In this document: positions 1 through 6,980 of the stretch, in pieces | Position numbering within the stretch: position 1 is the first letter of the stretch | Layout: each line of letters begins with the position of its first letter | NCBI RefSeq assembly: GCF_000165485.1 | Contig: NC_014623.1 | Location: 1,941,501 to 2,005,500, forward strand | DNA from: Stigmatella aurantiaca DW4/3-1 | Lineage (GTDB): Bacteria > Myxococcota > Myxococcia > Myxococcales > Myxococcaceae | Length of the DNA stretch: 64,000 nucleotides | Reading direction: 5' to 3' | The notes under the pieces: generated by a model | Seen by the model: only the letters and a program-made list of their open reading frames with translations | What the model was told of the DNA's origin: nothing | Databases searched by the model: none | Position numbers and translations under genes: made by a program

Positions 1-61
1 AGCGGTAGACCCACCGGCTGCGCGGCGCCTGTCCATCGAGGAGGATGCGGAGCTTGCTCAT
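1..61 (-). CDS. partial CDS, product unknown (5' end only)
   Basis: An ATG on the minus strand at 61 opens a frame that runs off the window after 20 codons (starting MSKLRILLDG). It begins 8 nt after the stop codon of the aminotransferase gene ending at 70, so it is probably the fourth gene of the riboswitch-led operon. No Shine-Dalgarno is obvious and too little is visible to assign a family. Confidence 0.45.
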   Translation of the reverse strand, partial: MSKLRILLDGQAPRSRWVYR

Positions 62-1425: not shown

Positions 1426-2985
1426 TCAACCCATCCGCGTTTGGGACTGCTCGCGCATGAACTGCGCGACGTAATAGGGGCCGCAGCCGCCCTTGCCCGT
1501 GGAGCCACTGGATTTCCAACCACAGAAGGACTGCACCCCGGGCCAGGCCCCCGTCGTCGCTCCCGTCCGGCGGTTGGCGTACAGCACGCCCGCTTCGACG
1601 CGGTCCATGAAGGCCTCCACGTCGCTGGGCTTGCGGCTGAAGATGCCGGCGGTGAGCCCGTACTCGCCATCGTTGGCGAGCACCAGGGCCTCCTCCAGGG
1701 TGTCGAAGCCCGTCACCCCCACGAAGGGAAGGAAGAGCTCCTCGCGCATCAGCCGGTGGCCGTGCGCCAGTTCCACCACGGTGGGCGCGACGAAATATCC
1801 CTCGGCGAGGGCTCCCTCCAACCGCAGCCGCTCGCCGCCCGCGTGCACGGTGCCATCGCTGCGGGCCGCCGCCGCCGCGCGCTCGAAGCGCTGGACAGAG
1901 GCCTTGTTGATGACTGGGCCCATGTACACGGAGGCGAGGCTCGGGTCTCCCACCGTCACGCCGCGGGCCTTCTCGGCCAGCCGGGTGATGAATTCCTGCT
2001 GAAGGGACTCGTGCACGTAGATGCGGGACAGCGCGCTGCACTTCTGCCCCGAGAGCCCGAAGGCGGAGCGGTAACAGCCCTCGACCGCCATCTCCAGATC
2101 CGCGTCACGGCAGATGATGGCGGGGTTCTTGCCCCCCAGCTCCAGCAGGCACGGCCGTGCCCTCCCCGTGGAGAGCTGCTGGTGGATGCTCATGCCCACC
2201 GCCTTGCTGCCGGTGAAGGTGACGCCATCCAGGGCCGGATGGCGCACCAGCGCCGCACCGAGGGACTCTCCCTCGCCGTGCACCACCTGGAAGACGCCTG
2301 GCGGGAGGCCCGCGTCCGCGAAGGCGTGGTACAGCCCCTCGGCGCACCAGGGGGTCTCCTCGCTCGGCTTGAGGATGACCGCATTGCCGCCGAGCAGCGC
2401 TCCCGCGCTCATGCCCGCCGCGAGCGCGACGGGAAAGTTGAAGGGGGCGATGACCGCGAACACGCCATAGGGCCTGAGCACGTTCCGGGTGTCTTCGTTG
2501 GGGGACAGCCGCGCCATCGGCTTGACGAAGCCCTGGGCCTCCTCGAGCTGGCCCGCGTAGTAGCGCAGCAGGTCCGCGGCCTCCTCCACGTCGCCCAGCG
2601 ACTCGAGCCGGTTCTTGCCCACCTCGAGCGTCATGCGGGCCGCCAGTTCCATCCGGCGCTCGGTGATGAGCGTCGCGGCTCGCCGCAGAATCCGGACCCG
2701 CTCCCCCCAGGGGGTGGCGCCCCAGGCGCGCTGTGCCTCCCGGGCCACGCGCACCACCCGGTCCACCTCGGAGGCGGGGGTGCGGTGGAAGCGCCCGAGC
2801 AACTCGTGGGGGTTGGCCGGGTTGCGGCTCTCCAGCAGGTCTCCGCTCCGGTAGGCCGTGCCCGCGATCCAGGAGGGGTATTCCGCGCCGAGCCTCGCCC
2901 TCACGGACGAGAGGGTTTGATCAAACTGGGCGTGCAGTGCCGACAGGTCCGCATCGAGCATCGAATAGGTGATTCGAAACGTCAT
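1426..2985 (-). CDS. pruA: aldehyde dehydrogenase, L-glutamate gamma-semialdehyde (P5C) dehydrogenase type
   Basis: A 519-residue NAD(P)-dependent aldehyde dehydrogenase. Visible motifs are PFNFP with Asn183, the Rossmann FTGS near 257, the general-base Glu282 in LELGGKNP and catalytic Cys316 in GQKCSA. The long N-terminal region and the C-terminal stretch with NRRTGATTGAWPG and FCGWKSSGSTGKG are typical of the RocA/PutA delta-1-pyrroline-5-carboxylate dehydrogenase branch, which oxidises glutamate semialdehyde to glutamate. The ATG overlaps the stop of the upstream aminotransferase (ATGA), so the two are translationally coupled. Subfamily is likely; a related semialdehyde substrate is possible. 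Confidence 0.87.
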   Translation of the reverse strand: MTFRITYSMLDADLSALHAQFDQTLSSVRARLGAEYPSWIAGTAYRSGDLLESRNPANPHELLGRFHRTPASEVDRVVRVAREAQRAWGATPWGERVRILRRAATLITERRMELAARMTLEVGKNRLESLGDVEEAADLLRYYAGQLEEAQGFVKPMARLSPNEDTRNVLRPYGVFAVIAPFNFPVALAAGMSAGALLGGNAVILKPSEETPWCAEGLYHAFADAGLPPGVFQVVHGEGESLGAALVRHPALDGVTFTGSKAVGMSIHQQLSTGRARPCLLELGGKNPAIICRDADLEMAVEGCYRSAFGLSGQKCSALSRIYVHESLQQEFITRLAEKARGVTVGDPSLASVYMGPVINKASVQRFERAAAAARSDGTVHAGGERLRLEGALAEGYFVAPTVVELAHGHRLMREELFLPFVGVTGFDTLEEALVLANDGEYGLTAGIFSRKPSDVEAFMDRVEAGVLYANRRTGATTGAWPGVQSFCGWKSSGSTGKGGCGPYYVAQFMREQSQTRMG

Positions 2986-4343
2986 AGCCGCTCCATGAAG
3001 GCGGTGATTCCCCGCGCGAGCTTCTCCACCAGTTCATCCACCTCGGCCTCGGTGATGATGAGCGGGGGGCCGATCATCACGAGGTCTCCGTTCGTTCCGT
3101 CGGCGTGGCCCGTGTTGGACCAGAGGACGAGGCCGTGCGCGAAGAGCTCCGAGAGCAGCCCCTCCACCACCTTGCGTGAGCGCTCAAAGGGCTTCTTGCT
3201 GGCCTTGTCTTCCACGAGTTCCACGCCCGCCATCAGTCCGACGCCCTGGACGGAGCCCACGAACGGCAGGGGCAGGAGCACCTCGCGCAACCGGCGTTGC
3301 AGGTACTGGCCCACCCGCGCCGCGTTCGCCACCACCCCGTGGCGCTCGTAGTAGTCGAGCACCGCGAGTCCGGCGGCCGTCATGGCCGGGGCCTGCAAGT
3401 AGGTCTGGGCGTGCATGAAGCCCCCGGAGCCCAGGCGCATCTGCTCGAGGTGCTCCTGGCGGACGAGCAGGGCGCTCAGCGGGGCGTAGCCGCCGCTGAT
3501 GCCCTTGCCGAGCACGAGGACGTCGGGCGTGAAGTCGTACAACTCGCTGGCGAAGAAGCGCCCCGTGCGGCCACACCCGCACATGACCTCGTCGGCGAGG
3601 GTGAGGATGCCGTACCGGCCGCAGATCTCCTGCACGCGCGCGAAGTAGCCAGGCGGAGGAGGGGAGGCCCCCGCCGAGGAGCCGATGACGGGCTCGGCGA
3701 TGAAGGCGGCGATCGTCCCGGGTCCTTCCCGCTGGAGGGTCTCTTCCAGGAGCCGCGCGTAGTGGTCGGCCCCGTCGCGCGCATAGTCCTCGAGCCCCGA
3801 GCGGTAGGGGTAGGGCGCGGGCGTGGTGACGACCTCGGACAACATCGGGCCGAAGAACTTCTTGTAGTGCGGCCGCCCCGAGAGGGAGAGGGCATACAAC
3901 GTGTTGCCGTGGTAGCTGGGCACCCGGGTGATGACCTTGGCGCGCTGCGGCTCCCCCCGCTCGACCCAGAGCTGCCGGATGAACTTGATGGCCGCCTCCA
4001 CGGCCTCGGAGCCGGAGCCGAGGAACGCCGCCCGTGTAAGCCCCTCGGGGGCCAGGGCGCACAGGCGCGAGGCGAGCTGCTCCGTGACCTCGGTCGTGAA
4101 GTGGGTTCCGTTGACGTAGCCGACCCGGAGCAACTGCTCGTGGATGCGGCCGGCCACCTCCCGGTTGCCGTGTCCCACGCTGGCCACGAGCGCCCCGGCG
4201 GAGCCGTCGAGGTAGCGCTTTCCCTGGGTGTCGAAGAGGTAGACGCCCTCTCCGTGAGACACCACGGGGAAGTCGCGCGCCAGGTGGCGCAACAGGACGT
4301 TGCCCTCAGGGTAGCGGACAGGATGTCCCGCGTCGTTTTGCAT
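2982..4343 (-). CDS. class III aminotransferase (BioA-like branch), first gene of the B12-riboswitch operon
   Basis: A 453-residue PLP aminotransferase with GSGSEA at about 109-114, LADEVMCGCGRTG containing Asp251, and Lys280 in LVLGKGISGGYAPLSA. It resembles the 'aspartate aminotransferase family'/DAPA aminotransferase-like branch more than the aminotransferase at 70-1413. ATG at 4343 is chosen because GGAGGG lies about 6 nt upstream and the conserved N-terminus begins here. The frame stays open to 4721, but that part crosses the riboswitch and is not protein-like. It overlaps the dehydrogenase start by 4 nt. The amino donor is unknown. A leader containing a cobalamin aptamer ends about 270 nt upstream. 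Confidence 0.87.
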   Translation of the reverse strand: MQNDAGHPVRYPEGNVLLRHLARDFPVVSHGEGVYLFDTQGKRYLDGSAGALVASVGHGNREVAGRIHEQLLRVGYVNGTHFTTEVTEQLASRLCALAPEGLTRAAFLGSGSEAVEAAIKFIRQLWVERGEPQRAKVITRVPSYHGNTLYALSLSGRPHYKKFFGPMLSEVVTTPAPYPYRSGLEDYARDGADHYARLLEETLQREGPGTIAAFIAEPVIGSSAGASPPPPGYFARVQEICGRYGILTLADEVMCGCGRTGRFFASELYDFTPDVLVLGKGISGGYAPLSALLVRQEHLEQMRLGSGGFMHAQTYLQAPAMTAAGLAVLDYYERHGVVANAARVGQYLQRRLREVLLPLPFVGSVQGVGLMAGVELVEDKASKKPFERSRKVVEGLLSELFAHGLVLWSNTGHADGTNGDLVMIGPPLIITEAEVDELVEKLARGITAFMERL

Positions 4344-4585
4344 CGGCCGCCCTCCACGCACCCGGGCGGCGGAGGCCGTCCGGTTCAAAGCCGTGTGGAG
4401 AAGCGTCCGTTGCCCGACCGCGGCACCTCCGGCTCGACCGAGCCCACGGACCGACCTTCGCCCCCACGGGCGAGCTGGTGACACGAGGGGGGGGGGTTGG
4501 GGAGCCGAGACGCGCGTGCGGATTCGCAAGAACTGCCGCGCTCGGACCTTCCCGCCTTCCCACGAGGCTCCAGGTCGAATGGCCG

Positions 4586-4607
4586 CCCGTGGATGTCTCC
4601 CCACGGG
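4586..4607 (-). promoter_or_regulatory. hairpin just 3' of the riboswitch, candidate expression platform
   Basis: CCCGTGG and CCACGGG form a 7-bp stem around an 8-nt loop a few nucleotides after the aptamer closes. No uridine run follows, so if it is a switch element it would work by Rho, by pairing with the aptamer 3' side, or not at all. A second small stem (TCGCCC/GGGCGA) lies near 4465-4480. Confidence 0.35.
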
Positions 4608-4609
4608 TG

Positions 4610-4795
4610 GATGCGGGCAGGTCTTCGGACTCGTGAGCGCTCCGGCCCAGGGCCGGATTCCTACGGCTCGCCGCTTCCCAGCCCCCGAGGAGCCAGTGCC
4701 AATGGCGAGATTCGTTCTCACTTACCGCTGCGGGGCAGTCCCGGAATCACACCGGGTTCCCTTTTAAGTCCAGGCGTGAGCCCAGACACCAGCAC
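4610..4795 (-). ncRNA. cobalamin (AdoCbl-type) riboswitch aptamer
   Basis: Read on the minus strand, the leader shows the hallmark cobalamin aptamer order. First comes AAAAGGGAACCCGGTGTGAT, then TCCGGGACTGCCCCGCAGCG (the B12-box-like core), GGTAAGTGAGAACGAA, CACTGG, a GGGAAG segment, and the closing GAGTCCGAAGACCTGCC. It sits upstream of the aminotransferase-dehydrogenase-aminotransferase operon and points into it. No B12 synthesis or transport gene is visible here. Boundaries are approximate because the P1 stem was folded by eye. Confidence 0.93.
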
Positions 4796-4942
4796 AGGCG
4801 CGTCTATAGGGTGGGCGTCTCGCGTGTGTCAATAGGTGCGCCCCGTGACGCGGCGGGCCCTTCCTTCCGGCGGCAAGACGTGGGAATCACCAGAGGGAGA
4901 TGAGCCGGGGCTGGTCCCGCCTCAGGCAAAGGAGGAGTTGCC

Positions 4943-5287: not shown

Positions 5288-6136
5288 TCAGCCCGCCTTG
5301 CGGGCCAGCAGCAGGTGGAGACAGCCGGTATCCTCCGTGCGCACCTCGGCGTGGGCCACCCCGGGCAGCCCCTCCACCAGCCGCAGCATGTCCGCGGGGC
5401 TGCGGTAGACGAGGTACCAATCCAACGCACTCTCGGTGAAGTGGAGCATCGGGTTGTCCGCGTTGAAGTTGCCGAGCACCAGCAAGCCCCCCGGCGCGAG
5501 CCCTGCCCAGAGCCGCGTGGTGAGGCTCCGGGCGAAGCGCTCCGTGAGGTAGTCGTACAGCCCGATGGAGTAGAGGAAGTCCTGGGAGTCGCGCTCCAGC
5601 TCGCTGCGGTTGCGCAGCAGCGCGAGCACCGAGCCGCACCACAGGCGCAGCGCCTCCAGCCGGGTGGCGGGCAGGGCCCCCACGCGGTGGAAGTGGGCCA
5701 GCGCCGAGTCCAGCGCGCCCTGATCCTGATCCATCAGGGTGACGCTGTCGAAGCTCACCTCGCGCGCCACCGCCGACAGCTCCGGCGCCGAGCCGGACGC
5801 CACGTTCATCACCCGGCGGGCCCCTCGCGCATGCTCCTCGCGCAGCAGGGCGCTGAGCATGTCCCGGCGGTTGCGCACCGCCTGGAAGCCCGGCAGATCC
5901 AGCGCCCACGTGTCCAGCCAGAGGCCCAGCGGGCTGTCCCCCGCGGGGACGCGCCGGTAGAGGGCCTCCATCATGAGGAAGTCGCCGGCATACCCGCGCG
6001 GCTTCTCCCAGCAGCGCTTGAGCACCGCGCTCTGCCAGAAGAAGGGGCCCGCCTCGGCGCGGAAGCGGAGCTGGGCCTCCGAGGCCCGGCCCAGGCCGAG
6101 GGCGCCTCCAGTTCCACCTGCACGCCAGACATCCAT
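5288..6136 (-). CDS. class I SAM-dependent methyltransferase-like protein
   Basis: A cytosolic protein with KPRGYAGDF near the N-terminus, followed by a nucleotide-binding segment (VMNVASGSAPELSAV) and an acidic strand (LMDQDQGALD), as in class I methyltransferases. The GYAGD element recalls proteins annotated as 3-hydroxypalmitate methyl ester synthesis (PhcB-like); that link is from memory and tentative. The start is uncertain: ATG 6136 gives 282 aa without a clear ribosome site. The frame stays open to an ATG at 6391, but that would overlap the divergent DUF2378 gene by about 110 bp. Confidence 0.68.
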   Translation of the reverse strand: MDVWRAGGTGGALGLGRASEAQLRFRAEAGPFFWQSAVLKRCWEKPRGYAGDFLMMEALYRRVPAGDSPLGLWLDTWALDLPGFQAVRNRRDMLSALLREEHARGARRVMNVASGSAPELSAVAREVSFDSVTLMDQDQGALDSALAHFHRVGALPATRLEALRLWCGSVLALLRNRSELERDSQDFLYSIGLYDYLTERFARSLTTRLWAGLAPGGLLVLGNFNADNPMLHFTESALDWYLVYRSPADMLRLVEGLPGVAHAEVRTEDTGCLHLLLARKAG

Positions 6137-6281
6137 CAGGAGTGCACTGAGCTGAGCAGAATCTTCCGGAAGCGGTGAATGGTGAACGCGCGCTGAGCTT
6201 GCCAGTGTGTTCAGCCAGCCTGTGAGGGTTGTTAATGTCTCAGTGAAGAGAGGTACCCTGGAGACGGAGGAGGAATCGGAG

Positions 6282-6980
6282 ATGGAGAACGTCAAGGGAA
6301 CTCCGGTGGTGAGACATCCTGCGCCCCCCCCAACCAGCCCCTTAGGAGTGGACCGAGCTGTGACACAATCGAGGGACATGCCTTCCCTCATTCACGAGCG
6401 GGCTGTCAAGGAGTGCCGGGAGCGGCAGGTGTTCACTCCCGAGGTCGCCACCGTGCGAGGGCTGATCTTCAATGCGGTGCTCGGGTTGGTGAGCCGGCAC
6501 CAAGGGGAGGCCTCCGCGGCGGAGCTGCGCGGGCTTGTCTCAAAGAAGTCTTACATCGACTTCTTCCCGTATCCCGCGCGGGACTTCTTGCAACTGCTCT
6601 ACGGCGCCGCGGAGGTGCTCGCACCGTATCACGGGGACTCGCTCGATGAGGCCATCCGGGCGTGTGGTGCCGCGGCCGTGTCGGGGTTCTTCCAGTCGGC
6701 GGTGGGGCGCACGCTCACGAACCTCATCGGGCGAGGGGACCCCAAGCGGCTCTTCTCCAACGCGCCGACGGCTTACTCCACCACGGTGGGGTACGGGCAG
6801 CGGACGTACACGCGACTGAACGACCGGGCCGTGCGCTTGCACTTCCGGGGTGACATGCAGCCGGTGCAGTTTCACCAAGGGGTGCTGGAGGAGGCACTCG
6901 CGGCGGTGGGCTGCAAGGGCCGGGTCCGGGTCCGGGTGCTCGGCCTGGATGAAGCCGAGTACACCATCGAATGGGAGTGA
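6282..6980 (+). CDS. DUF2378 / TIGR02265 family protein
   Basis: A 232-residue member of a myxobacterial paralogous family of unknown function. Recognisable blocks are VRGLIFNAVL, YIDFFPYPARDFLQLLYGAA, the RTLTNLIGRGDPKRLFSNAP segment and a C-terminal beta-rich part ending YTIEWE. ATG 6282 has GGAGGAGG 8 nt upstream; a later ATG at 6379 is the other option. No signal peptide or membrane segment is seen. It is divergent from the methyltransferase and shares its promoter region. Confidence 0.85.
   Translation: MENVKGTPVVRHPAPPPTSPLGVDRAVTQSRDMPSLIHERAVKECRERQVFTPEVATVRGLIFNAVLGLVSRHQGEASAAELRGLVSKKSYIDFFPYPARDFLQLLYGAAEVLAPYHGDSLDEAIRACGAAAVSGFFQSAVGRTLTNLIGRGDPKRLFSNAPTAYSTTVGYGQRTYTRLNDRAVRLHFRGDMQPVQFHQGVLEEALAAVGCKGRVRVRVLGLDEAEYTIEWE

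Follow-up and report, generated by a model that had tools for sequence, protein, structure and literature searches.

A cobalamin riboswitch leads a Myxococcaceae operon that probably serves B12-independent lysine breakdown via beta-lysine

This study concerns a cobalamin riboswitch and the minus-strand operon behind it, located in a stretch of 64,000 nucleotides from the chromosome of Stigmatella aurantiaca DW4/3-1 (contig NC_014623.1, positions 1,941,501 to 2,005,500; the whole stretch is called the window, and positions are given within it). Cobalamin riboswitches are known to act on transport genes, synthesis genes, and B12-free isozymes. Our reading, to which we assign a probability of roughly 0.68, is that this riboswitch governs the genes for a B12-independent breakdown of lysine via beta-lysine. 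Somewhat more cautiously, we propose that the route (L-beta-lysine, 3-aminoadipate, 3-oxoadipate, and finally acetyl-coenzyme A (CoA) and succinyl-CoA) is undescribed and widespread, and that in the Myxococcaceae the riboswitch probably selects between it and the B12-dependent branch of lysine degradation through lysine 5,6-aminomutase (KamDE). The features on which the argument is built are listed below, in the direction of transcription.

4832 to 4803, minus strand: promoter, TTGACA (4832-4827), 18-nucleotide spacer and TATAGA (4808-4803), read from the sequence
4808 to 4599, minus strand: cobalamin riboswitch aptamer RF00174, complete model, 101.3 bits in cmscan
4607 to 4586, minus strand: predicted hairpin CCCGTGG-loop-CCACGGG at the P13 position, candidate expression platform
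4477 to 4440, minus strand: conserved 38-nucleotide leader element CAGCTCGCCCGTGGGGGCGAAGGTCGGTCCGTGGGCTC, near-identical across the AT1 leaders of relatives
4343 to 2982, minus strand: AT1, class III aminotransferase of 453 amino acids (PF00202), first gene of the operon
2985 to 1426, minus strand: ALDH, aldehyde dehydrogenase of 519 amino acids (PF00171), resembling pyrroline-5-carboxylate (P5C) dehydrogenase
1413 to 70, minus strand: AT2, class III aminotransferase of 447 amino acids (PF00202; PRK05769 family)
61 to 1, minus strand: S103, start of an open reading frame of 103 amino acids that extends 251 nucleotides past the left edge of the window
47 to 52, strand not applicable: junction of a deletion of about 3.0 kb, with loss of the genes for CoA transferase A, CoA transferase B and a thiolase; located by BLASTN against the nearest relative

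The aptamer matched RF00174 of Rfam over all model positions (1-189), far above the gathering score of 31.5 (E 3.5e-24). It was the only RNA family matched in the window, and the source chromosome (10,260,756 bases) holds four such aptamers. With the promoter ahead and the AT1 start behind, all on the same strand, the aptamer lies in the 5' leader of the operon; its annotated start at 4808 takes in the -10 hexamer. A strict consensus scan, in which the second hexamer has to end in T, missed the promoter. Its -35 and -10 elements are retained in 17 relatives and likewise in three relatives without the aptamer. The start of AT1 is the ATG at 4343, with GGAGG at 4355-4351; the GTG at 4721, which opens a longer frame overlapping the aptamer, is not a likely start.

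The solved structures nearest to ALDH are P5C dehydrogenases (299 bits for the best of them versus 242 bits for the piperideine-type enzyme Pcd), and its columns E282 and C316, presumed to be catalytic, are invariant across the relatives. Its scores stayed under the cut-offs of the P5C dehydrogenase models (417 versus 648 for NF002852 and 383 versus 660 for TIGR01237). AT2 exceeded the cut-off of NF004426 (569 bits; cut-off 552). No Pfam or NCBIfam match was obtained for the homologue of S103 in the nearest relative (G036). The initial annotation had seen a cobalamin aptamer leading three minus-strand genes (class III aminotransferase, P5C-type aldehyde dehydrogenase, second class III aminotransferase) and suspected a fourth gene at 1-61: the aptamer is real, the family matches agree for the three genes, and the fourth exists as S103. 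The interval it had given for riboswitch and operon, 2982-4795, takes in the riboswitch and AT1, and the other operon genes lie outside it.

Interpreting the operon of the source genome by itself was misleading, as three genes have been deleted here. The sequence between AT2 and S103 is shorter by about 3.0 kb than in G036, which has the full gene set, and the BLASTN comparison links L061 7740 to 4772 at the junction (L005 14047-14052). AT1, ALDH, and AT2 of G036 are 95-98% identical to those of this genome, with a ratio of nonsynonymous to synonymous substitution rates (dN/dS) of 0.14 for AT1. Relaxed selection on the shortened operon was considered and rejected: values of 0.05-0.14 resemble those of neighbouring genes, and the amino acid changes are distributed evenly between the branches. 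The remaining genes show no sign of decay, judged by these substitutions. Elsewhere in the genome, a pca (protocatechuate) cluster (L284 937-8785; G000:C1 1.628-1.636 Mb) encodes PcaDC, PcaB, PcaH, PcaF (709 bits), and a CoA transferase. Both steps missing from the operon, CoA transferase and thiolase, could be covered by this cluster. Six genomes of the same genus were searched for a close copy of the cluster's CoA transferase A, and none was found.

Across 96 genomes of the family, an orthologue or close homologue of ALDH is present in 22, 20 of them at 76-100% identity, the others being a fragment in G013 (62%) and G051 (48%). The operons of G051 and G013 break at contig ends and were excluded from the riboswitch counts. 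All 19 other complete loci share the order AT1, ALDH, AT2, CoA transferase A, CoA transferase B, thiolase, and in 16 of the 19 a homologue of S103 closes the operon (exceptions: G032-G034). The synteny check proposed with the initial annotation placed RF00174 directly upstream of AT1, on the same strand, in 17 family genomes. From the end of the conserved box of the aptamer to AT1, 274-300 nucleotides were counted in the relatives measured and 418 in G029, and the leader of about 290 nucleotides is strongly conserved. Because of this synteny across 17 genomes, chance placement was rejected, and the arrangement is, by all appearances, fixed. Hitch-hiking, meaning that the riboswitch belongs elsewhere and the genes lie behind it by chance, is thereby largely refuted and was given almost no weight, although orphan riboswitches exist in the family and a decayed metE lies behind a riboswitch 30 kb away. 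A riboswitch beside another gene, with the operon genes elsewhere, was not encountered in the family; the exceptions to the common arrangement are three genomes that lack both KamD and Kdd and two others in which the operon was deleted.

Two further loci were noted. G029 carries tandem cobalamin riboswitches (L079 6833-7895), the first leading a thioesterase-like gene and the second the operon. A record titled Comamonas sp. KCTC 72670 (L169) contains the myxococcal operon and riboswitch in the same layout as G066 and is probably mislabelled.

For the substrate of the operon and the steps of the two aminotransferases, we infer the following sequence of reactions. KamA, a lysine 2,3-aminomutase-like protein, would make L-beta-lysine (3,6-diaminohexanoate), from which one aminotransferase would take off the 6-amino group to give 3-amino-6-oxohexanoate. 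On chemical grounds, this semialdehyde should cyclise to a five-membered pyrroline resembling P5C; therefore, an enzyme like P5C dehydrogenase would fit better than a piperideine-carboxylate dehydrogenase. ALDH would oxidise the pyrroline or semialdehyde to 3-aminoadipate, the second aminotransferase would convert this to 3-oxoadipate, and CoA transferase and 3-oxoadipyl-CoA thiolase would yield acetyl-CoA and succinyl-CoA. The beta-lysine route is favoured because two aminotransferases, a semialdehyde dehydrogenase, a 3-oxoadipate-type CoA transferase, and a 3-oxoadipyl-CoA-type thiolase match the beta-lysine skeleton step by step. In each of the 19 relatives whose locus is complete, predicted enzymes for all steps after beta-lysine are encoded together. 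The operon thiolase is nearest to 3-oxoadipyl-CoA thiolase models, though it scores under their cut-offs, and both CoA transferase subunits and the thiolase are 46-56% identical to protocatechuate-cluster enzymes of Pseudomonas veronii, Azospirillum, and Rubrobacter.

The proposed route shares parts with several known pathways. Like the beta-ketoadipate (pca) pathway, the full operon has CoA transferase A/B and thiolase, but its 3-oxoadipate would derive from an amino acid and not from protocatechuate, and its thiolase stays under the pcaF cut-off. Ornithine and proline breakdown likewise combines an aminotransferase (AT2 is of the acetylornithine aminotransferase type) with a P5C dehydrogenase; however, ALDH scores far under the cut-offs for that enzyme, and the operon adds a second aminotransferase, a CoA transferase, and a thiolase. 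Lysine fermentation (KamA, KamDE, Kdd, Kce, and Kal or Kat) also starts from the beta-lysine made by KamA. It requires adenosylcobalamin, and its end products are acetoacetate and 3-aminobutyryl-CoA (PMC3149608), whereas no aminomutase is encoded in the operon, whose predicted product is 3-oxoadipate.

Two other substrates were weighed against beta-lysine. The first, unlikely in our estimate, is alpha-lysine degraded via aminoadipate by lysine 6-aminotransferase, piperideine-6-carboxylate/aminoadipate-semialdehyde dehydrogenase, and 2-aminoadipate aminotransferase, CoA transferase and thiolase being used at later steps. Such a route, too, would offer a way around the Kam route that needs no B12; a set of two aminotransferases and one semialdehyde dehydrogenase suits it, and it explains the association of the riboswitch with KamD (below) just as well. 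AT2 resembles 2-aminoadipate transaminase at 338 bits, but far under the cut-off of 650 for that model, and ALDH is P5C dehydrogenase-like with the lower score for the piperideine type. Moreover, a 3-oxoadipyl-CoA-type thiolase and a pca-type CoA transferase are unexpected in an aminoadipate route, and KamA is retained where KamD and Kdd are lost. The second, which we also regard as improbable, is an operon for another amine or amino acid (ornithine, gamma-aminobutyrate, 5-aminovalerate, putrescine, or a beta-amino acid), the riboswitch reflecting some other B12-dependent demand. Class III aminotransferases and aldehyde dehydrogenases are indeed hard to assign from sequence, and most scores here lie under curated cut-offs; such an operon, however, accounts neither for the pcaF-like thiolase nor for the loss of the aptamer exactly where KamD and Kdd were lost.

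The competing route through KamDE, Kdd, and Kce is the established continuation from beta-lysine, and it needs adenosylcobalamin for KamDE. The source genome encodes KamD, KamE, Kce, and Kdd outside the operon, each over its NCBIfam equivalog cut-off, and KamD is present in 88 of the 96 family genomes. Every determinable family operon carries the riboswitch if KamD is present (17/17) and none does if it is absent (0/3; Fisher p 0.0009). With other families added, the counts became 17/19 with KamD and 0/7 without (p 5e-5); both p values ignore relatedness. Both KamD and Kdd are missing from the genomes without the aptamer, G032, G033, and G034, which kept KamA-family genes and the full operon. 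They also retained the promoter (G034 TTGACAAGCCAAAGAGGCGGACAGTAAGAAC versus G054 TTGACAGTCCGAAGAGGCGGACAGTACAAAC) and the first leader bases, and the distance from the -35 element to the AT1 start is 190 nucleotides compared to the usual 500 or so. Three cobalamin riboswitches are still present elsewhere in these genomes, and in G034 they precede nrdA, a cbiM-like gene (assigned by reading the sequence), and lipoprotein genes. G035, a congener, has KamD and Kdd and lacks the operon. The converse loss was found in G065 and G075, where KamD was kept and the operon deleted, leaving the aptamer and its leader next to remnants of AT1, thiolase, or S103 (approximate positions):

L285 8448-8960, minus strand: orphan riboswitch of G065
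L286 8619-9190, minus strand: orphan riboswitch of G075

Across all 96 genomes, the association of operon presence with lack of KamD gave a p value of 0.08 (0.01 after removal of three small genomes) and is weak alone. Taken as loss patterns, an aptamer gone without KamD and Kdd and a riboswitch left after operon deletion beside a kept KamD resemble a natural genetic test. The same genomes bear on the idea that the aminotransferase and thiolase complete the B12-dependent lysine route, in the way that the acyl-CoA beta-transaminase Kat, likewise a class III-type aminotransferase of lysine fermentation, replaces Kal (PMC3149608). The presence of KamDE, Kdd, and Kce in the source genome agrees with it; nevertheless, it is very improbable, as complete operons persist in G032-G034, where the route would have no input, and a semialdehyde dehydrogenase has no role in it. 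Among the targets considered in the initial annotation, a B12-independent replacement for a B12-dependent amino acid mutase route thus gained comparative support, the mutase being lysine 5,6-aminomutase, whereas generic amine catabolism and B12 side-chain metabolism gained none.

KamA is encoded elsewhere in the genome, and its alignment to 2a5h conserves R134, D293, and D330, which we take to be the lysine-binding residues. KamA was found in 29 of 35 module-bearing genomes, a weak indication given that there is no background rate for comparison. In Anaeromyxobacter terrae (G134), AT2 and the dehydrogenase gene flank a gene of the KamA family; among 80 named loci, KamA beside the module was seen only in Anaeromyxobacter. 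A diverged paralogue, KamA2 (L112 8879-10249, minus strand), adjoins KamA in much of the family and lies inside the aminotransferase-dehydrogenase module in Anaeromyxobacter.

Several observations weigh against a riboswitch-controlled beta-lysine route. KamA scored under the lysine 2,3-aminomutase cut-off (472 versus 525) and is away from the module in most genomes, and the operon thiolase scored under the pcaF cut-off (547 versus 597). The operon is incomplete in the source genome itself, with CoA transferase and thiolase gone. As G032-G034 share one genus, their aptamer loss is probably a single event. G090 has KamA, yet neither KamD nor the operon. Finally, no riboswitch stands alongside the module in G134 and G144, which have KamD together with all or part of that module.

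Outside the family, modules of two aminotransferases, aldehyde dehydrogenase, and CoA transferase occur in Elusimicrobia, Gemmatimonadota, Chloroflexi, Bdellovibrionota, and others. The Rfam scan of seven Myxococcota loci from outside the family revealed no riboswitch beside the module, and a simple motif search of the 80 named loci revealed one only at two loci of Myxococcaceae type. Since no riboswitch was seen beside the module outside the family, riboswitch control looks like a family trait, the module being older or more widely spread.

When cobalamin is plentiful, the riboswitch would presumably repress the operon, as for metE. Where a genome encodes both isozymes, cobalamin represses the B12-independent one (PMC2211319); the operon would fit this rule, extended from isozyme to route. 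As with the riboswitch on metE, the same aptamer family stands ahead of a B12-free alternative to a B12-dependent enzyme of the same genome, but the operon would be a multi-gene catabolic route and not a single isozyme, and the B12 enzyme replaced would be lysine 5,6-aminomutase. In the family, cobalamin riboswitches also precede metE, nrdA, genes for BtuB-like receptors, and a pair of lipoprotein genes. Both MetE and class I NrdAB are alternatives that work without B12.

The molecular form of the repression may involve two candidates, the P13-position hairpin and the 38-nucleotide leader element. The hairpin lies directly after the aptamer, is largely retained among relatives with some sequence change, and would be the expression platform. 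Sequence related to the 4477-4440 element was also found 3' of the metE aptamer, some nrdA aptamers, and lipoprotein aptamers. No intrinsic terminator was seen on the riboswitch strand, and the fold of the whole leader was not more stable than that of shuffled sequences (z 0.26). A hairpin just 5' of the AT1 start (GCCGCCC/GGGCGGC) that could sequester the Shine-Dalgarno sequence is visible here, but was rejected, its pairing being broken in several relatives.

Further observations were made on the leaders and the other riboswitches. In leaders L001-L060, as at 4440-4477, the conserved element around CAGTCGCCCGTGGGGGCGAAGGTCGG trails the aptamers that lead AT1, metE, and some nrdA genes, and lipoprotein genes have looser versions ahead of them. 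The riboswitch about 30 kb away (G000:C1:1915928-1916130, minus strand; L006 7037-8131) leads a metE pseudogene with pieces in different frames. The riboswitch-led lipoprotein gene pair occurs in several genomes (L007 13584-15658 and L122 6833-8952, both minus strand), with a weak LIC_13355-family match for one gene, and is possibly involved in B12 uptake. Upstream of the divergent PilZ gene, a protein of 367 amino acids (5288-6391, minus strand) is conserved in G036 and has zero Pfam or NCBIfam matches.

A literature search covering few subscription journals found nothing on a cobalamin riboswitch with lysine aminomutase, nor on beta-lysine with 3-oxoadipate, and novelty is provisional because of that coverage. 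If the proposal is true, metabolic engineering would have a useful route from lysine to 3-oxoadipate, and the aminotransferase, dehydrogenase, and CoA transferase modules of several bacterial phyla would gain a testable function. For the Myxococcaceae, the evidence suggests that the riboswitch targets a pathway independent of B12; the switch would then decide which of two pathways is used, rather than which of two isozymes.

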